A stretch of DNA of 40,410 nt, taken from NCBI GenBank assembly GCA_028873515.1, contig JAGWIG010000023.1, forward strand, positions 1-40,410, read 5' to 3'. The DNA comes from Pseudomonadota bacterium (GTDB lineage: Bacteria; Pseudomonadota; Gammaproteobacteria; Burkholderiales; REEB80). Shown one piece after another: positions 3,643 through 40,410 of this stretch (its first letter is position 1; each line of letters opens with the position of its first letter). Made by a program: the position numbers and the translations under genes. The notes beneath the pieces are model-generated. The model had not been told where the DNA came from. It did not search any database and saw only the letters and a list, made by a program, of their open reading frames with translations.

Positions 3643-4021
3643 ATGAAGATGGAGATAAAGAAGAGACTACTGTTCCTGAGCCTGTTCCTTATGAGCAGTC
3701 AGTGTCTTGCGGTAACTGCTGGAGACCTGAAGTTGTGGACTTCTAAGTCAGTAATGGAGACAGGCGGAGATAAGGAACAACCAGTGAACAATGTGTTCAT
3801 GGCTGGGCACCTTCGGGGGTACATTAAGGCCACTGCTGAAATACTGATGGTGTACAAGCAGTGGCCTTAATGTTGCAACAGCCGGGGACTATGAGAAACT
3901 GGGGGTAGAGGGGATGGTGGAAGATGCTTTGGATAGAGCTGAAGGGGACTCATTGAGACTGCCTGCTGCTCTTTTTGTACAGAAGGTTCTCTATGGGAAG
4001 TTTCCTTGTGACAGGAAGTAA
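3643..4021 (+). pseudogene. Rap1a/Tai-like secreted protein, frame broken
   Basis: The only plus-strand gene. ATGs at 3643 and 3649 begin a signal peptide (MEIKKRLLFLSLFLMSSQ, cut near CLA) followed by a small domain with LRGYIKATAEI. The frame stops at 3868-3870, but the next frame continues without a stop to 4019-4021 and encodes SLRLPAALFVQKVL and YGKFPC, like the C-terminus of the Rap1a/Tai immunity family, where a helix ending in FPC is typical. A one-base shift between about 3845 and 3868 rejoins the halves. The family's other cysteines (after LxxW and before GYI) are replaced. Single orientation, own promoter and signal peptide make it a likely lysogenic-conversion gene. It may be decayed or contain a sequencing error. 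Confidence 0.55.
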
Positions 4022-4053: not shown

Positions 4054-4233
4054 AGGGGTTAACCTTAAGTAGACTATAAGTATAGCTGTTGACTATAAGT
4101 AACTATAAGTAACTATAAGTTACCTTAGTTTATTTATTTCTGTACCCTCATCCATGTCCTTACTGGAGGACTTACTGAGAGGAGATTAAGTCAGACTTAT
4201 AGTTATCCCCTCTCCTATGGTACAACCTTTTAA
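4054..4233. repeat. Duplicated module, copy A, after the terminase
   Basis: 4054-4207 repeats 38740-38883 exactly except for one extra 10-base unit, and the similarity continues to 4233. It contains decamers GACTATAAGT at 4072 and 4091, AACTATAAGT at 4101 and 4111, and an inverted copy at 4195-4204, a GTCCT-TACTGG-AGGAC hairpin at 4156-4171, and GGTACAACCTTTTAA at 4219-4233. Candidate roles are integrase arm sites, replication iterons or a processed leader with a promoter. The rest of 4022-4277 has no gene. Confidence 0.85.
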
Positions 4234-4277: not shown

Positions 4278-5481
4278 TCATTCCTGTTCTGACAGCTCAA
4301 TAAATCCTAAAGTTTCCCCAAAACCTCCTGTAGTTCCTTCGTACCCTAAAGCATACTTAAGATGCTCCTTCAGCTCCTCTTCCAGAAGGTTATCATAGTG
4401 TTCCTTCTCAGCCTTAAGGGTGTCTCTGGACATATCTTCAGCCCAGTAAGCCACTGCCCCTGACAATGCGTCCAGCCGGTCATCATGAAGCAAACTCCCT
4501 TTATCTTTGGAGATGCGAGTCAACTGGTAAAACAGACTATACTTAGCCCAGGTTTCCCCAGGATGCTTGTTGTAGTTGGTCAAGTCCTTCTCAACTAACT
4601 TACGGTTTACAACCATCCTATGATTAGCAATGACAGGTTCCAAGGTCTCGATGATCCTGACCTCTTTCTGCCCTTTAGAGCGTCTTCCCTGGAGGAACTC
4701 ATCATCTATGGAAACCTTATAGATTCTCGAAAGTACAGGCTTGAACAACTCCTTGTACATGCCGTCACCAAAGTTATCCTCAACGACCACCGAGTTAACC
4801 TGAAACTCCTTGGCCTTCTCTGCCAGCGACTCAAGGGTGGCTGGGGAGTAACCATCGATAAACCCTCCAGCATCCATCAGGAACATCATGCCGTTTAGTT
4901 GGAACACTACAGCGTAGCCTGTCTCATCCTTTCCTCGTCCTGATGGGTCGATGAACATCACCTTCCCTTGGTAGCTGGTCATTCCCTGGTCATCTGTAGA
5001 AATCCACATAGGGCTATGCCAACGATCCCCAGGGAAACCGAAAGCTTCTAAGCCTTGTATCTCATGGGCTTTATCGCCTGCGTAGACGATCTTGACTGGG
5101 CCTACTTCTTTATCCAGATCAGTAACTACCATGTCCCCCAGTTTCAAAGGGTATCTATCCTGGTCAGACAGGGTAGTATCCAGCATGAACTGAAGGGAGA
5201 AACCTGCCCTACCGTAAGAAGCCTCCCGTTCCCTCAAGTCTATATCGGAGAATCGAGTAGGCTCAGTAGAGGTTCCTGCCAGTTTCGGATTGAGCTTAAG
5301 GATGTTGACAATCCGGTCTGCAATCCTCCCCCGATACTGCTTTAACTGCTTGGTATTGGGGTATCTGGCAGGCCACACCTTGATGTCATAGCCCCTCTCA
5401 GGGAGATAGTTGTATAAACTCATCTCTGTCTGAGGAGTTCCCAGGTAAATAATCTCACCGTTTGGTACTAACACTGCGTCA
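4278..5481 (-). CDS. Terminase large subunit, exon 2 (nuclease domain)
   Basis: C-terminal two thirds of the T7 gp19-like DNA packaging motor. After splicing the reading continues K-E-F|D-A-V-L-V-P-N-G, giving the ATPase coupling motif YLGTPQTE at about residues 192-199 and the RNase H-like nuclease with FIDPSGRGKD near 356-365. Acidic residues at VVVEDNFGDG and HDDRLDALS would complete the metal site. Exons 1 and 2 total 1743 nt, 580 residues, close to the 586 of T7 gp19. Without splicing this part has no good start of its own: the GTG at 5474 lacks a ribosome binding site. Confidence 0.92.
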
Positions 5482-5731
5482 CACTATGTTCAACAGGAGT
5501 CGTTAGTTCCTGCTCGGCACTTAGGCCAGCTATATGTCGCCATATAGATCAGACTATCTCTTCATCCCTTACAGGGAGTCTTGCGCTTCGAGCCACTTGG
5601 CTCTACTTCCTTTCGGAATAGTCGTTACACTTTCCCCTAGGGGCTTAGCACGGTATTGTCTCTGGGAGATGTCCACCGTTTTCACAAGATTTATTTTCAA
5701 AGGGGTTACCCCCAAAGGAGTCTAACTTTTA
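5482..5731 (-). ncRNA. Group I intron in the terminase gene, 250 nt
   Basis: Minus-strand sequence contains GTAACGACTATTCC (5628-5615) and GAAGAGATAGTCT (5563-5551), whose GACTAT/ATAGTC pairing is the group I P7 helix with typical R and S elements. It also shares GAAGCGCA with the polymerase intron. Choosing the 5' site after ...AAAGAGTT (exon ends in T, 5732) and the 3' site after ...CATAGTG (ends in G, 5482) restores the terminase frame exactly. No endonuclease gene is inside. The 5' part forms GGGG/CCCC stems near 5701-5715. Confidence 0.88.
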
Positions 5732-6270
5732 AACTCTTTGACTGATTCTGCCAGCCGGTCACGCATGGTCTGAGTAAGGGAGTTCTTTGGAACCTCTACG
5801 TCATCAGCAACGATGATAGTGGCCCGTCCTCCGGTAAGCTGCCCTGTGATACCTACCGATCTTACGGAAGGAGCCTGATGCGCTGCTGAGGGGCCAACAT
5901 CGAAGGCTAACACAGAATCCCGCTGTCCTTTATCAGGATCAGGACGGAGATGATGAAGTAACGGCATCTCCTCGATAAGTCTCTTAACGAACACTGAGAA
6001 CGCTTCTGACCTGTCCTTAGATGCGGAGACTACTAAGATGCGCTCATTAGGGTTGACATACAGCCTCCACAGGACATAAGCGGCTGTCAGCCATGACTTC
6101 CCAATCCCTCGGAAAGCCTGCACCATTCTCCGCTTAGGGCCAGACTGTAAGTACCCTGCAATGTCTAACTGTAAATCTGAAGGAGTGGGGAGGTCTAAGT
6201 GTCTCCAGACTAGCCAGAGGAATATCCTGAAGTCTGACTTGATCCTTTTTATCTTGGTATTGTCATCCAT
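5732..6270 (-). CDS. Terminase large subunit, exon 1 (ATPase domain)
   Basis: N-terminal ATPase part of the T7 gp19-like motor that pumps DNA into the prohead. Walker A FRGIGKSW is at residues 53-60 and Walker B with catalytic acid, IIVADDVE, at 152-159. The intron splits the codon of F180 in KEF|DA, between Walker B and the coupling motif. I start at the ATG at 6270 (MDDNTKIKRIKS). A TTG at 6312 would extend it but lies in the arm of the 6311-6360 hairpin. Unspliced mRNA would stop two codons past the junction, giving an inactive ATPase fragment. Confidence 0.92.
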
Positions 6271-6310
6271 GACAGTTCCGATGTATGATATGAATAGGGT
6301 CTCTATAAGC

Positions 6311-6360
6311 AACGATAAGGAGCAGAGGGCTACAGTTGTGCCTCTTGGCTCCTTATCGTT
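6311..6360 (-). promoter_or_regulatory. Long hairpin between the terminase subunits
   Basis: AACGATAAGGAG (6311-6322) and CTCCTTATCGTT (6349-6360) pair perfectly over 12 bp, and AGAGG/CCTCT (6324-6328/6341-6345) extends the stem inward. It lies between the small and large terminase genes with no following T-run on the minus strand. The distal arm ends about 40 nt before the large-subunit start, so it may set mRNA stability, processing or relative translation. T7 has genes 18.5 and 18.7 in this place. Confidence 0.55.
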
Positions 6361-33646: not shown

Positions 33647-33919
33647 TCACATTTCGTTATCAAGGTATTGACGGATGGCTCTCACATGTTCCCCTTTCCC
33701 TTGCAATAGGGAGTCGTTCAGCATCCTTCCGGATTTACTGAGAAGCTCAGGGGAGTTAATGTTGAACCGCTTACATAGAAGGAGGAACAATATAGCTATC
33801 GCCGGTAGTCGGATGCCTGGAGGGTTTAAGTTCTGAAGAGAGTCCAGAATCCCGAACGATGCCTGCACTACTTCATCAGCTGTCGAGTTGTTTATCTGAT
33901 CGATCACGTTAGGTCTCAT
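33647..33919 (-). CDS. Unknown protein of 90 residues
   Basis: Begins MRPNVIDQINNSTADEVV and has a central hydrophobic helix (GIRLPAIAILFLLLCKRF) and a charged C-terminal helix (GEHVRAIRQYLDNEM). One possible membrane segment. The ATG overlaps the end of the hexapeptide-repeat gene. I recognise no family. Small proteins with this LPAIAILFLLL-type helix occur beside RNA polymerase genes in related phages. Confidence 0.6.
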   Translation of the reverse strand: MRPNVIDQINNSTADEVVQASFGILDSLQNLNPPGIRLPAIAILFLLLCKRFNINSPELLSKSGRMLNDSLLQGKGEHVRAIRQYLDNEM

Positions 33920-34682
33920 TAGTACCCGCTAAGGCTGTAAGGATAGAAACAAGTAAGGGGTAGAACTTCAGGGCGGTTTCTCCGTCCATTTCTTTGATAC
34001 GGTCATTACTAAATGACAGCCACGCTTCTATGCTATGGAGCTGGCACCCAACCTGCGCCATCCCTGAGTAAACGGTAATGTGATAGCTAAGTCCAGACAC
34101 GCAGACAGGGCTAATAGTCAACAGTGCGGAACCGGAGACCTGTGCGGAATCGGAGACCTTTGCGGAACCGGAGACCTGTGCGTCACCGAAGACCTGTGCG
34201 AAACCGAAGACCTTTGCGGAACCGGAGACCTTTGCGAAACCGAAGACCTGTGCGAAACCGAAGACCTGTGCGGAACCGGAGACCTTTGCGAAACCGTAGA
34301 CCTTTGCGAAACCGGAGACCTGTGCGGAACCGGAGACCTGTGCGGAACCGAAGACCTTTGCGGAACCGAAGACCTGTGCGTAACCGGAGACCTTTGTGTA
34401 ACCGAAGACCTTTACGGAACCGGATATCTGTGCGGAACCGGATATCTGTGCGAAACCGGAGACCCTTGCGGAACCGGAGACCTTTGCGGAACCGAATATC
34501 TGTGCGAAACCGAATATCTGTGCGGAACCGGAGACCTGTGCGGAACCGGAGACCTGTGCAGTATCTGCCACCCATCCTCCACCGTTTGGGTGTCGATGTG
34601 CAGGAACCGGCCCGTTGCCATCTTGGAAGTCGAATAGTGTTACAGGGCTGTCAACAGGTTGTTCATTTTCTACTTCGTTCAT
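33909..34682 (-). CDS. Hexapeptide-repeat (left-handed beta-helix) protein
   Basis: 257 residues. An N-terminal segment (TLFDFQDGNG ... HRHPNGGGWVADT) leads into 24 exact six-residue repeats at 42-185 of the pattern A-[QK]-[VI]-[SF]-G-[SF], then a 72-residue cap (SPVCVSGLSYHITVYSG ... FYPLLVSILTALAG). Hexapeptides with one aliphatic residue per strand fold as a left-handed parallel beta-helix. Here there are about eight turns. Proteins of this design, with this same type of head and tail, are common in phages but of unknown role. Start at ATG 34682. A 20-nt promoter-like motif lies 59 bases upstream. Confidence 0.78.
   Translation of the reverse strand: MNEVENEQPVDSPVTLFDFQDGNGPVPAHRHPNGGGWVADTAQVSGSAQVSGSAQIFGFAQIFGSAKVSGSARVSGFAQISGSAQISGSVKVFGYTKVSGYAQVFGSAKVFGSAQVSGSAQVSGFAKVYGFAKVSGSAQVFGFAQVFGFAKVSGSAKVFGFAQVFGDAQVSGSAKVSDSAQVSGSALLTISPVCVSGLSYHITVYSGMAQVGCQLHSIEAWLSFSNDRIKEMDGETALKFYPLLVSILTALAGTNET
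34128..34559. repeat. 18-bp tandem repeat array encoding the beta-helix
   Basis: Twenty-four copies of an 18-bp unit, on the plus strand reading ACCTGTGCGGAACCGGAG or close variants, cover 432 bases. Variation sits mainly at three or four codon positions (SGS, FGF, FGS, SGF endings), with many neighbours identical, a sign of recent expansion by slippage or unequal exchange. Long open frames on the other strand and in other frames here are side effects of the repeat. Confidence 0.9.
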
Positions 34683-34740
34683 TACTTTCTCACTTTCATA
34701 TTGAAATAATGAGCGTCCCTGCTCGTTAGTGTTTGTATAG

Positions 34741-34760
34741 CTAAGGTACAACCTTTTAAT
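34741..34760 (-). promoter_or_regulatory. 20-nt promoter-like motif after the RNA polymerase gene
   Basis: CTAAGGTACAACCTTTTAAT on the plus strand (minus: ATTAAAAGGTTGTACCTTAG) is identical to 38891-38910 and nearly identical to 4215-4234. Three 15-17 base matches in a 40-kb genome, all in leftward intergenic positions, suggest a binding site for the phage RNA polymerase. This copy lies upstream of the beta-helix gene and the replication genes. Confidence 0.5.
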
Positions 34761-34817: not shown

Positions 34818-37259
34818 TCAGGCAAAGAAGTAGAGCGACTCCTTGATTTCCTCCAGTTCCAAGGTTCCCATCGGAGGGCATTCAGGCACGTAAGCTGCTA
34901 CTTCGGATTCCGTTATTGTCTCCAGAAGCCCCTTCCTGAACTCTCCAAGAACATCCCCAGAATACTGCTCAACGAACTGTTCCCTAAGCAGTATGGACAG
35001 TTCCATCATGTTCGCTGCATGAGTACCGAAGCTGTCATGGATGAAGGAGAACGCTTCGATACCTGCTGCTAACCCTGCATTGATTGTTAACATCATGTGC
35101 GAAGCGTCACAGGAATGGATGAAGTTGGGAGCTATCCCTACTACTTGTTTCCTAGTGTTTGGTTTGGAACCTGGAGTTCCTATCAGGAAATAAGAAGCCT
35201 TACCTTTTATAAGCACCTTAATCTGCTTACTTTCCTTTTTCATGTACGCTTGCTTAACCAGTAGTCCAACCGGAGTAGTCCACTCGATAACATCAGAACA
35301 GGCAGCCGATACCTTGACAGCATCCTGAAGCCAGTCCATAGCTTGACGAGCCGCTACTACAGTGCTGCCGATAGCTTGGTAGTTGATCTTGGCAACATAG
35401 TTGGCAACTTGAGGTATAGTTAGTTCCCCAATATCAGGCAGTACGCCGTCAGCTTTCATCTTCTTCATTTCGTCAATCAGCTGGTCTCGCATACCGAACA
35501 GTGTGACAGCATAGGGTACGGTCATGGTGTTACGTTTAGCCAGCTTCCGAGTAACGAAACCCGAAGGCAGCTGCAACGCTTCTTCTACACCCTCTTCTTT
35601 ATCTGCCCAGATCAGCAAGTTGGCCCTATCAGCCACTTGCTGATAGATGTCGCTGGGTTTTTCTGAAGGAACCAGATTAGTAGCAGCCCCCCCAACGCTA
35701 TCTCTGAGCATTGCAGAATAGTTCTGGAGGCCATTACAAGTGCCATCCACTTGGATAGGGAGATGGGACACATGCTCAGGGCCATGCACATGCCACCCAA
35801 GGTAATCAAAGCAAGCAGCAAGAAACAAGAAGGGATCAGCAGCCTTAGTCCACCCTTGGTTAGCTAAAGGATCAATAGCATAGTCAAGCAGCTCCTGTGA
35901 GTGCTCTTTTACCCATTGGATACGTGCTTCATAACCTGCCTTGTCGAACCCCCATGAGTTTGCAACATGCACGAACAACCATGCTGCCCCCTCTTCACCC
36001 AAGGGTATCCCCTCAGCAAACTCCAGTAACGCCTTGGAGCTATCATCCCCTTGGGGAGACAAGCCGGTACTAATTGGATAAGCCCTTCCCCTCCAGTCAA
36101 GCGTATATGGAAAGTAAAACTCCTGTTCATCCAAGAACTTCTCGGCTATCCAGAGTTTCGTGCTGATGTCTGAGACTTTGCCTGTGATCCTGTGGTTGTA
36201 ATCATACACTTCCCGCATTGCGTTCTTGTAAGACTTCAACAGCTCAGAATCATGGTCAACCGCATCTGGACGATCAGGAAACAGCTTTCCGTCACGGGGA
36301 GGCATCTTAGCCCTATCCCCTCCCAGCTCCCACAGTGCCGACATGACATCGTAAACCTTCTTATTGATACGCCATTTGGTATTCTGGAGACCGTTGGTTG
36401 CGGAGTAGACTCTGGACAGCTGCTCTCCCATACCAGCCAGTGTTCTGAGATGCGCCTTGTCGGAAGTCTTCAGCAATGTATTATGAACTGAGTGATATCC
36501 TCCGTTGTATGGGGTTGTCCACTCCCTAGGAGGGATTAGCATGGGCAGAGAGAAGGGAGAGAGAAGGGAACATGTTTGGTGTTGCTTATTGAGCCATTGC
36601 AGCAGGCTCGCAGTTGCCTTTAGGTATGCTTGAGTGACCTTTGGGCCAGTCCGTACCAAGTCCTTCTCAAAGAAACCTGTAGTTTCTATCACTATCTCCA
36701 GCAGCCTAACACCCACATTTAGCCTGAACTCCTCAGTCCATCCCCTCTCTTGGACACCTGCATCCATCCGTTTGTAGTCTAAAGCCCTTTCCCTTTGTTT
36801 GCCGTTACCTTTATGAGCAATGTCCCTCTCGGCCCACTTTAGCTGCATTGGTGCCTGCTTCTGGAAATCTTTGTACTCCAGCATCTTTTCGAGAGCTGCG
36901 GCAATCTCGAAGGCTACCGTCTGGTACTTAGTGCCTTGCTTGATGTTGCCAATGCAGGTGCGGAGGGCAATGATGGCAGTTTCTGTGTACCCTGCTTCCT
37001 TAACTTCCCGTACCGTAGCTCCTCCCCGTCTAGCTGATGTGCCTGATAGCACAGCTTCGGCCCACTCCTCGATACCAGCAGCTACAGCAGCTACCGATTG
37101 TCTTACTAGCAGTTGACCAGGAGGCATGTTGGCTTCGTCTTCCCTTGACATTTGTTTAAAGTAGCGTTCCTGTCCCAGCCCTATCATCTCTTTTTCAAGT
37201 TCAAGTTGACGGACTAAACGTTGTTCAAAGGTTTCTAAGTGGTTACTGTTGGCTGTCAT
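34818..37259 (-). CDS. Phage RNA polymerase (single subunit), gp1-like
   Basis: 813 residues (T7 gp1 has 883). The whole catalytic set is seen: 'PYTLDWRGRAYPISTGLSPQ', motif A VDGTCNGLQNYSAMLRD with the catalytic Asp, motif B KRNTMTVPYAVTLFG, with K and Y of the active site, FIHSCDASHMM, and motif C FIHDSFGTHA. The C-terminus ESLYFFA is like T7's FAFA. It transcribes the phage middle and late genes from its own promoters. It comes late in the early block, after integrase and Rha, as in other T7-like phages with integrases. Confidence 0.95.
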   Translation of the reverse strand: MTANSNHLETFEQRLVRQLELEKEMIGLGQERYFKQMSREDEANMPPGQLLVRQSVAAVAAGIEEWAEAVLSGTSARRGGATVREVKEAGYTETAIIALRTCIGNIKQGTKYQTVAFEIAAALEKMLEYKDFQKQAPMQLKWAERDIAHKGNGKQRERALDYKRMDAGVQERGWTEEFRLNVGVRLLEIVIETTGFFEKDLVRTGPKVTQAYLKATASLLQWLNKQHQTCSLLSPFSLPMLIPPREWTTPYNGGYHSVHNTLLKTSDKAHLRTLAGMGEQLSRVYSATNGLQNTKWRINKKVYDVMSALWELGGDRAKMPPRDGKLFPDRPDAVDHDSELLKSYKNAMREVYDYNHRITGKVSDISTKLWIAEKFLDEQEFYFPYTLDWRGRAYPISTGLSPQGDDSSKALLEFAEGIPLGEEGAAWLFVHVANSWGFDKAGYEARIQWVKEHSQELLDYAIDPLANQGWTKAADPFLFLAACFDYLGWHVHGPEHVSHLPIQVDGTCNGLQNYSAMLRDSVGGAATNLVPSEKPSDIYQQVADRANLLIWADKEEGVEEALQLPSGFVTRKLAKRNTMTVPYAVTLFGMRDQLIDEMKKMKADGVLPDIGELTIPQVANYVAKINYQAIGSTVVAARQAMDWLQDAVKVSAACSDVIEWTTPVGLLVKQAYMKKESKQIKVLIKGKASYFLIGTPGSKPNTRKQVVGIAPNFIHSCDASHMMLTINAGLAAGIEAFSFIHDSFGTHAANMMELSILLREQFVEQYSGDVLGEFRKGLLETITESEVAAYVPECPPMGTLELEEIKESLYFFA

Positions 37260-37377: not shown

Positions 37378-37785
37378 TTATACTACGGGTTTCTTCTTGA
37401 AAGGATCAGCGACGATAGCAGGGTCTCTCCTGGCTAACTCCACGATCCTCTTGACTAACGGCGAGTAGTCATCAGGGTTACTGGAGCCTAACTCATGGAC
37501 TTTGGATGTTTCCGGTAGTACGGACACAGCGTCTGCCTCCAGCTTGTTGTACTCGTCATCTGAAATCAACGGTACAATGTCAACGTAGTAAGCGTAGCGA
37601 TGAACCATCACCATCAGCTCCAGGTAGGAGGCAGGGATCATGGACAGTTCCCCCCTGGCAGGACAACCCAAAGTGTTACGCAAGGTAACAGGTTGATGCA
37701 CAGTCTGCGGTTGTAGGGCAACCAGTGGACACCTATCCAGAGCGAGGACAACCGGAAGAGGACTCCTAGTTTCATTTGGAGCCAT
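37378..37785 (-). CDS. DNA ligase N-terminus-like protein
   Basis: 135 residues from the ATG at 37785 (overlapping the Rha stop). Residues about 48-85, SYLELMVMVHRYAYYVDIVP and LISDDEYNKLEADAV, match the N-terminal Ia domain of NAD-dependent DNA ligases (consensus 'YYxxDxPxISDxEYDxLxxxL'), which binds nicotinamide mononucleotide. An 'S-S-N-P-D' and RIVELARRDP follow. The adenylation and OB domains are absent, so it cannot be a complete ligase. Stand-alone proteins of this type occur in phages; their role is unknown. The first 45 residues are unmatched and rich in proline. Confidence 0.55.
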   Translation of the reverse strand: MAPNETRSPLPVVLALDRCPLVALQPQTVHQPVTLRNTLGCPARGELSMIPASYLELMVMVHRYAYYVDIVPLISDDEYNKLEADAVSVLPETSKVHELGSSNPDDYSPLVKRIVELARRDPAIVADPFKKKPVV

Positions 37786-38524
37786 CCAGTAGCACAGCCA
37801 GTTCCGCCTGTAATTTCTCAACTTCCTCTTGTTTATCAGCAGCCAACCTTAGGGCTTGTGAAAAGGATGTAGGCATTGATGGTGTCGGTAAGCTCGGAAC
37901 TTTAGGTTCCTTACCCTCCAGTTCAATCCAGCGGTCAACAATAGCTGCCCTGTGCGGGATGCTGTACCCTGCAACTAAGATGTGGGATAACCGGAAGTCC
38001 AGGTTGTAGCTGGGGTACGTCTGCTTGTTCTGTGGGTGGACGTAAGGGGTCTCCCCAAAATTCGGGAGACCTAATTCTGCAAGCATCGTCCGTATGTCAG
38101 ACATCACATGGTCATGCCTCTTCCCCGTCAGCTCAGCAATCTCCAGGGAACTCATGGTTAACTGATTGTTGACTAGTGGTTTCACAAGCTCCACTTTGAC
38201 CGGCTGAGCCTTCACGGGGGTCTTATGTTTGAAAACGTTATCTATGAGCCAGTACAAGAGCTGGTTAGCTTTGGCCTTGTTTAGCTTCTTTAACAGTTTT
38301 CTACAGATGTGGCTCCCTATAACCGTAGCTCCTCCATTCCTGCCCACCTGGGCTGTTCTCAAGCTGGCTTTGGAAACTACGGTATCCAGATGGTATCTAA
38401 GGTTGGATACCACATAACCTAATGGGGCTGCCAGATCGTTGACCACTACAGCCTCTTCCCATCTTCCTCTACTATCCTGATGATATGGGCGTTGTAAGTT
38501 ACGGACGTTACAGCTGACAAACAC
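37772..38524 (-). CDS. Rha-family regulator with an N-terminal domain
   Basis: About 250 residues. The C-terminal half holds a Rha domain: LTMSSLEIAELTGKRHDHVM, SDIRTMLAELG, PYVHPQNKQTYPSYNLDF and 'IPHRAAIVDRWIELE', then a helical tail (AADKQEEVEKLQAELAVLL). Rha proteins regulate temperate-phage growth and lytic choice. The N-terminal part (EEAVVVNDLAAPLGY) is a separate unknown domain. The GTG at 38524 has no ribosome binding site, while an ATG at 38538 with AAAAGG upstream opens the wrong frame. One extra A in 'AATAAACAAG' would join them, so the true start is uncertain. Confidence 0.78.
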   Translation of the reverse strand: MFVSCNVRNLQRPYHQDSRGRWEEAVVVNDLAAPLGYVVSNLRYHLDTVVSKASLRTAQVGRNGGATVIGSHICRKLLKKLNKAKANQLLYWLIDNVFKHKTPVKAQPVKVELVKPLVNNQLTMSSLEIAELTGKRHDHVMSDIRTMLAELGLPNFGETPYVHPQNKQTYPSYNLDFRLSHILVAGYSIPHRAAIVDRWIELEGKEPKVPSLPTPSMPTSFSQALRLAADKQEEVEKLQAELAVLLDGSK

Positions 38525-38739: not shown

Positions 38740-38910
38740 AGGGGTTAACCTTAAGTAGACTATAAGTATAGCTGTTGACTATAAGTAACTATAAGTTACC
38801 TTAGTTTATTTATTTCTGTACCCTCATCCATGTCCTTACTGGAGGACTTACTGAGAGGAGATTAAGTCAGACTTATAGTTATCTCCCCTGCTAAGGTACA
38901 ACCTTTTAAT
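38740..38910. repeat. Duplicated module, copy B, after the integrase
   Basis: 144 bases (38740-38883) identical to 4054-4207 except for one missing 10-base unit, plus the shared motif at 38891-38910. Decamers lie at 38758, 38777 and 38787, an inverted copy at 38871-38880 and a GTCCT/AGGAC hairpin at 38832-38847. Placement next to the integrase makes integrase arm-type sites a reasonable guess. No gene lies in 38706-38930. Confidence 0.85.
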
Positions 38911-38930
38911 TGTTCTTAACTTTCAGTTAC

Positions 38931-40031
38931 TTACCGAAACAGCTTGTCCACCCCATTTTGTGCTGCTGGTGTGCTGTTGATTATGTTTCGTTTAGTGTTC
39001 ATTGTTTCCAGCACGTTAACTAAAGGTGATAGCGAGTCCACATTAAGATGGATATACCTGTTCGTGGTTGTGGCTGACTTATGGCCCAGGAACTCTTTAA
39101 CCATCGGCGCATTGATCCCTGCCTCAATCAATCGGGTAGCCGTAGTGTGACGTAGAGTGTGCCTAACGAGCGTTTTATCCTCCCCCAGCCCTACCTGTTG
39201 CTTAGCCCAATTCCACGACCTAGCGGCTTGTTTATAGTTATATATGAAGGGTTTTGGGTGGCCTACTTGCTGCCAGTTGGTTAGTATTTCAACAGCTCTT
39301 AACGTCAACGGCTTGGTAACTGATGAGCCGCTTTTAGTGTCAGGCAGAGTCAGGCAGTGTCTTTCCCAGTCAACTTGTTTCCACTCCAGAGTCAATAACT
39401 CCCCAATCCTACAGCCAGTTTCGAGAAGTAACTCGAAGAGGAGGAGAGATTCTTTATGTACAGGATCGATGGATAAGGCTAGTGTCTTCCAGATTGCGTC
39501 TTGTTCGTCCTGAGCACATACCCTGGTATTCTGACTCTCTTTGAACAAGGGGACTTTAGGGGCCTTATCGATATACCCTGAGTCAACTCCCCATGACAGG
39601 ATGTATGTCAGCGTGGTTAGGATTCGATTGATTGAGGCTGGTGTATAGCCCTTCCCTCTATGGTGTTCCAGTTTGGTAAGCGCCAATATCATGTCATTAA
39701 CCATACCTCTAGTTACTTGAGATAACTGAGTGTCCCCAGGGATGTAGCGCTTGAGCACGTTAAACCGATAAGTCGGGCCTGTGGTGTCTTTCAGCTTGCT
39801 CCAATGTGTTGCATGGATATAGTCAAAAGCTTCTTGCAGTGTCTTACTCTTGACTATACCCATACTTCCGGCCACACTCGTTTGATAGGAACCATCGATT
39901 AGTGACCGCTCGATGCTTTTGGCACGTACTGTGGCCTCTCGTTTATCTGAGGTTCTGAGGGATTGACGGACTGACTTACCGCCATACTCAACATGTACGT
40001 GGTATGTGTTACCTCTAAGGAAAATTCGCAT
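38931..40031 (-). CDS. Tyrosine recombinase (integrase)
   Basis: 366 residues from the ATG at 40031 (GGAG 7 nt upstream). An N-terminal AP2-like beta domain (FLRGNTYHVHVEYGGKSVRQ), a core-binding SAM-like domain about 60-165, and a C-terminal catalytic domain with R208 (ETGCRIGELL), K233 (DTKSGS), H291/R294 (RHTLRHT), H317 (LGHKS) and Y326 (NRYIHL). All active residues are present, so it should be functional for phage integration. Integrases upstream of the RNA polymerase occur in some cyanophages and pelagiphages, while T7 itself lacks one. The attachment site is not located. Confidence 0.94.
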   Translation of the reverse strand: MRIFLRGNTYHVHVEYGGKSVRQSLRTSDKREATVRAKSIERSLIDGSYQTSVAGSMGIVKSKTLQEAFDYIHATHWSKLKDTTGPTYRFNVLKRYIPGDTQLSQVTRGMVNDMILALTKLEHHRGKGYTPASINRILTTLTYILSWGVDSGYIDKAPKVPLFKESQNTRVCAQDEQDAIWKTLALSIDPVHKESLLLFELLLETGCRIGELLTLEWKQVDWERHCLTLPDTKSGSSVTKPLTLRAVEILTNWQQVGHPKPFIYNYKQAARSWNWAKQQVGLGEDKTLVRHTLRHTTATRLIEAGINAPMVKEFLGHKSATTTNRYIHLNVDSLSPLVNVLETMNTKRNIINSTPAAQNGVDKLFR

Positions 40032-40353
40032 CTTCATACTCCACATAGTCGTAAGCTTTAAAACCCCTTTCGGTGACAACGAGGTATTCCCCTGTTGTTG
40101 ACGTATGCTCCCCCGTCTTGGCTACCAGTCCCGCTGCTACAAGTTTCTTTATAGCGTTAGAGACTGTGTTTTTAACCAAAATCCTTCCAAGATGGTTAAC
40201 TTTTAGATCAGCTTGAATCAGTTTGACCCCCTTGCGCTTGATTAAGTAGTCGAATATGGGTCAAGCTGATCCAATGTTTTTGGTGCCCAATACTTGAACC
40301 AGCCTTTCTTCCGAAGTTCTGCGGTCTGTTCGTTTTCTTTCGTCGTCTTTCAT
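40015..40353 (-). pseudogene. Winged-helix regulator, two frame breaks
   Basis: A MarR-like winged helix is encoded leftward from about 40255 to the stop at 40015: DYLIKRKGVKLIQADLKVNH, then a helix NTVSNAIKKLVAAGLV and a wing EHTSTTGEYLVVTERG. The ATG at 40353 has AGGAGG upstream but its frame meets TGA at the contig join. In the +1 frame the sequence reads ELRKKGWFKYWAPKTLDQLD and would continue into the winged helix if the GGG at 40258-40260 were GGGG. A one-base loss near the start would then give a whole protein of about 113 residues. Errors at homopolymers or a decayed gene are both possible. The stop overlaps the integrase start. Confidence 0.5.
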
Positions 40354-40410
40354 CCCTACTGCCTCCTAAAGTCCCCTTATGAGGACTTTTATTATGTAAA
40401 AAAGCAATAA
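40262..40410. repeat. Terminal direct repeat, right copy
   Basis: Exact copy of positions 1-149. Joining 40261 to position 1 gives a circle of about 40.26 kb, and the winged-helix frame crosses this join. The copy includes the hairpin at 40368-40389 (the counterpart of 107-128) and the AGGAGG site. Confidence 0.9.

Follow-up and report, generated by a model that had tools for sequence, protein, structure and literature searches.

A duplicated promoter and repeat-array module in a temperate-looking T7-like phage resembles the phiOR-type right-end element and lies behind the terminase and upstream of the RNA polymerase gene

The phiOR region of phage T7 is an origin, and to our knowledge there is no agreed binding factor for this region or for the short repeats at the T7 ends. 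Together with lysozyme, the T7 RNA polymerase (RNAP) pauses at the junction of concatemers, and it acts alongside the terminase in maturation (PMC3276506), and phiOL has been tied to transcription-driven genome entry (PMC6171733). In LUZ100, a T7-like phage with an integrase, phage-specific promoters were mapped by ONT-cappable-seq, phi1 before the RNAP gene, phi2/phi3 after it and phi8 after the terminase, and an autogenous RNAP feedback loop was proposed (PMC10134795). Beyond these three papers, the literature found on MarR operators and on concatemer processing in T7 offered little.

The window, that is, the whole stretch of 40,410 nucleotides analysed here, is one circular phage contig in which bases 1-149 recur at 40262-40410, and this 149-bp end overlap may be an assembly overlap. 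The minus strand carries most genes, including all of those around the two modules discussed below. The gene set is T7-like (single-subunit RNAP, primase/helicase, DNA polymerase, and T7-type portal, capsid, tail and terminase) and stands alongside a tyrosine integrase (38931-40079, minus strand; PF00589, 2e-29). The T7-type RNAP (34818-37259, minus strand; phrog_414, 3.7e-231) shares no more than about 38% identity with those of the INPHARED phages listed, which places the phage in a remote lineage; searches by integrase, RNAP or portal found no close relatives in viral or genome contigs, and an RNAP search in 150 and 369 related genomes returned one distant other only. The C-terminal exon of the terminase large subunit (4278-5474, minus strand) is separated from the part at 5722-6312 by a group I intron (RF00028, 76 bits; 5530-5741, minus strand), in which no homing-endonuclease ORF was seen. 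This intron was the sole match in an Rfam scan of the window, and a tRNA scan of the window was negative. A long non-coding stretch with CTATATCTAGTGG-type repeats (2004-2982) is a candidate place for the physical DNA ends and host promoters.

Within this contig, two copies of one module lie on the minus strand about 5.7 kb apart across the contig join, as the preliminary description had stated: direct alignment confirms that 4054-4207 (copy 1, post-terminase, 154 nt) and 38740-38883 (copy 2, post-integrase, 144 nt) are the same save for one 10-bp unit. In both copies GATAACTATAAGTC...GGTTAACCCCT is identical, except that copy 1 has an additional ACTTATAGTT unit, and the longest exact string common to the two is 106 nt. 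The leader decamers are ACTATAAGT, 10 bp apart. The array of copy 1, which is also in the best match class, comprises four ACTTATAGT[T/C] units (4072, 4091, 4101 and 4111; array 4072-4120, minus strand) with an inverted unit at 4195-4204, and copy 2 comprises three decamers and one inverted unit. Allowing at most one mismatch, ACTTATAGTT has 16 matches against 3.1 expected, a number reached by 0 of 100 shuffles, and 9 of the 16 fall within the two modules, in both orientations, as had also been noted.

With respect to transcription, TTAAAAGGTTGTACC[A/T]TAG stands upstream of both copies. The preliminary description had placed a 15-base motif, GGTACAACCTTTTAA, after both copies; the adjacency is correct, but this 15-mer is the reverse complement of TTAAAAGGTTGTACC and, given that the surrounding genes are read on the minus strand, it forms the start of each unit, while a third occurrence had been overlooked. 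The window holds exactly three matches, all on the coding strand, against 0.06 expected. The first, TTAAAAGGTTGTACCATAG (4215-4233, minus strand), lies behind the terminase and, from its exact motif and position, would be the equivalent of phiOR and of LUZ100 phi8. The second, TTAAAAGGTTGTACCTTAG (38891-38909, minus strand), lies between the integrase and the rha-like and RNAP genes and, from motif and position, would be the equivalent of LUZ100 phi1. The third (34741-34759, minus strand) lies behind the RNAP gene at the position of LUZ100 phi2/phi3 and T7 phi1.1, matches by motif and has no decamer module. Directly behind this third putative promoter, a solenoid-like protein (33909-34751) is encoded, with an 18-bp repeat occurring 24 times at 34124-34559; given that its listed TTG start overlaps the promoter, its true start is probably further in.

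As an exact pattern, the motif had no match in viral contigs. In CRP-125, each of the three places is occupied by a related motif, TTAGGTTGCACCATAG, and in the sister CRP phages by that motif or variants of it, so that the places agree between phages whereas the motif sequence differs, a difference expected for diverged RNAPs. A repeated coding-strand motif at the RNAP and terminase borders is also what characterises an Autographiviridae promoter set, and we infer that TTAAAAGGTTGTACC[A/T]TAG is a promoter for the phage's own RNAP. Since the motif sits at the places mapped in LUZ100 and shared with the CRP phages, the module would be the leader behind two phage promoters.

The array itself belongs to a repeat family that recurs behind the terminases of T7-like phages. 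The genome-wide best match to the window array lies at most 480 bp behind the terminase in 13 of 18 whole genomes (some of these being ties); in T7 it is directly behind phiOR and in LUZ100 directly behind phi8. Of the analyses of 160 terminase loci taken from viral and bacterial contigs, the cleaner tests are the ranking of loci and a motif-blind count. With the window array as query, 33 of 148 loci had the post-terminase stretch in first rank, against 3.9 expected; p was at least 0.5 in 66 of the 148, that is, no such array by this query, and the array is not universal. Blind to motif, CTATAGG was the most enriched repeated 7-mer behind terminases (22 of 135 loci against 0.7 expected, 3e-26). 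With a motif picked after inspection of some of these phages, repeat density peaks 0-250 bp behind the terminase stop (0.57 against about 0.04 per locus, about 14-fold) and the spacings in the 135 loci cluster at 10-12 and 20-24 bp, which suggests helical phasing. At least three repeats of this motif within 500 bp behind the terminase were found in 17 of 135 loci, against 3 of 3426 background windows. A scan for tandem decamers only gave five stretches, one of them (contig L037) an array that follows, at a distance of about 0.36 kb, the matched portion of a T7-like terminase 46-56% identical to that of the window. The orientation of the decamers relative to transcription varies between phages, and the T7 pause signal ATCTGTT was not enriched. 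In Mycobacterium phage jiawei (1-608 and 35410-36021), 12-bp tandem CTCTAGG-type repeats lie behind the terminase, and TGTGCC/GGCACA palindromes resembling an operator array lie before the RNAP gene.

Short repeats are thus concentrated directly behind the terminase, the arrangement of the T7-type right end with its short repeats and phiOR. By sequence comparison, copy 1 is a variant of a right-end element, a phage promoter with CTATARG-type repeats, that recurs behind T7-like terminases. The preliminary description, in offering a control leader or an origin, was in the right neighbourhood, given that the module is the leader of two putative promoters and the repeat family lies at the T7 phiOR position.

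It is the long copy 2 that is the unusual part. The exact match between the post-terminase and the other region is 106 nt in the window and 14-26 nt at most in relatives with any match, in an effective sample of about 19 loci with an RNAP and 17 genomes, many of the loci being without both ends; where testable, relatives share promoter-sized matches only. Weaker arrays behind the pre-RNAP promoter in phi15, YIMV22061 and contig L063 give the placement of an array there a precedent, but the long exact second copy is without one in the sample compared. In Pseudomonas phage phi15, CTTTAAGTA-type repeats lie behind the pre-RNAP promoter (3871-4009) and none behind the terminase.

It is suggested, with moderate confidence, that the module is a phiOR-type promoter with a replication or packaging array, of which a copy has been placed behind the promoter that precedes the rha-like and RNAP genes. 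Each copy would be a minus-strand unit, a phage-RNAP promoter followed by a leader of about 150 nt with the 10-bp repeat array as its core. The post-terminase copy would be the original, its promoter starting phage-RNAP transcription towards the concatemer junction and its phased repeats binding a conserved replication or packaging factor, and to judge from its position this array may be a secondary origin or a packaging-control site. Copy 2 would have been transplanted behind the pre-RNAP promoter or kept identical by recombination, the direction of copying being presumed; here the promoter would give an autogenous RNAP loop and the array would be another such site, on the side of the early genes.

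It is possible that the decamers are instead operators of a lysogeny repressor, MarR-like or Rha-like, and that a dimer bound to TAACTNNNAGTTA around the pre-RNAP promoter and at sites along the array blocks the RNAP feedback loop in the lysogen. An exact copy of this palindrome, a candidate operator, lies a short way upstream of the pre-RNAP promoter (38917-38929), and others are inside both arrays (4110-4122 and 38786-38798), with 7 matches at no more than one mismatch against 1.6 expected. Moreover, the gene for a Rha-like regulatory protein (37772-38524, minus strand; PF09669, 4.5e-15; PHROG name, anti-repressor) is the first large gene behind copy 2, and MarR sites flanking the promoter upstream of the RNAP gene have been hypothesised for LUZ100 (PMC10134795). 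However, this is unlikely for three reasons: first, the repeat family lies at the same place in T7, which is without such a repressor, and changes far less than the promoters do; its persistence there disfavours an operator as the ancestral role. Second, visual inspection of the CRP phages showed palindromes of another sequence ahead of their pre-RNAP promoter. Third, the MarR-like frame is weak, with Pfam MarR_2 at only 0.0072, below the cut-off, and has an in-frame stop. This MarR-like/winged-helix frame lies upstream of the integrase, and its in-frame TGA (40261-40263) stands precisely where the 149-bp overlap begins, which may reflect a broken repressor, a wrong frame or an end-of-contig error.

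A role at the RNA level, in which the module would be a structured 5' leader that protects or processes messages or controls translation, is less likely again. The leader would close on itself from the presumed start of transcription (AGGGG...CCCCU). Both copies retain AGGGG despite a shifted flank, and both fold better than shuffles (z -2.90 for copy 1 and -2.38 for copy 2), as do CRP-125 (-4.1), LUZ100 (-2.05), CRP-113 (-2.4) and T7 phiOR (-2.2). Against this, CRP-227 shows nothing (z +1.2), so that leader folding is variable, the genome-wide fold ranks are mixed, and the spacing of 10-12 bp in many loci suggests a DNA-binding role. RNA structure as a conserved feature was set aside given this mixed fold evidence.

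Arm-type integrase sites, which the preliminary description had offered as one possibility, are very improbable next to an attP here. Copy 2 does lie directly behind the integrase gene and the decamers do occur in both orientations, but the conserved place is behind the terminase, where homologous arrays are found even in the integrase-free T7, whereas the integrase-bearing relatives are mostly without them beside the integrase. The concentration of the repeat family behind terminases, T7 phiOR included, argues for a conserved right-end element rather than for arm sites. The queries used yielded no attP, no tRNA and no host-like core. Flank queries against the host assembly for a host copy or attB gave chance-level matches only. 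As for the loss of the integrase block by recombination between the copies, which had also been raised, the packaging ends of relatives lie between the terminase and the early genes, and such a deletion would therefore probably remove the packaging ends too. Lastly, it is most unlikely that an assembly artefact copied one module, even though the contig comes from a 275-contig assembly and has the end overlap, since the copies have different flanks and an internal difference of 10 bp, no exact repeat is longer than 106 nt, and the genes on both sides stand in the order found in relatives (terminase-promoter and integrase-promoter-RNAP).

A further and more tentative possibility is that the CTATARG array behind the terminase is a cis-element, recurring but without a name, through which T7-like phages link late transcription by the phage RNAP to replication or packaging, and that it has here been copied whole behind the pre-RNAP promoter. 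If so, a factor that binds the array would govern the self-amplification of the RNAP as well as the maturation of the genome. With its sequence preserved behind the terminase despite complete divergence of the promoters, the repeat family is a defined target for finding the binding factor, and the phage provides a natural test, with the same array beside two promoters that have different duties.

Of the described systems, the T7 phiOR region is like the window in that ACTATATAG/ACTTATAG repeats follow a phage-RNAP promoter located behind the terminase, but its array is single and degenerate, and T7 has neither an integrase nor a second promoter with an identical copy behind it. The T7 short repeats SRL and SRR, with CCTAAAG, are likewise CTWTARG-family repeats flanking the terminal repeat and are the top windows in T7, by a motif also picked after inspection of some of these phages; their place in T7 is next to the terminal repeat, on either side of it, whereas the window copies are 5.7 kb apart and within promoter modules. 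LUZ100 shares the arrangement of promoters at three places, around the integrase, the RNAP and the terminase, and has decamers behind phi8, but its phi1 and phi8 share the promoter only (15 nt) and it has more promoters overall. In the Roseobacter phages CRP-125, CRP-113, CRP-171, CRP-227, CRP-114 and CRP-361, the integrase is followed by the RNAP, the related motif is at matching places and an array lies behind the terminase, as in the window; these phages differ from it in that they carry no array module behind the pre-RNAP promoter, the place that copy 2 occupies here.
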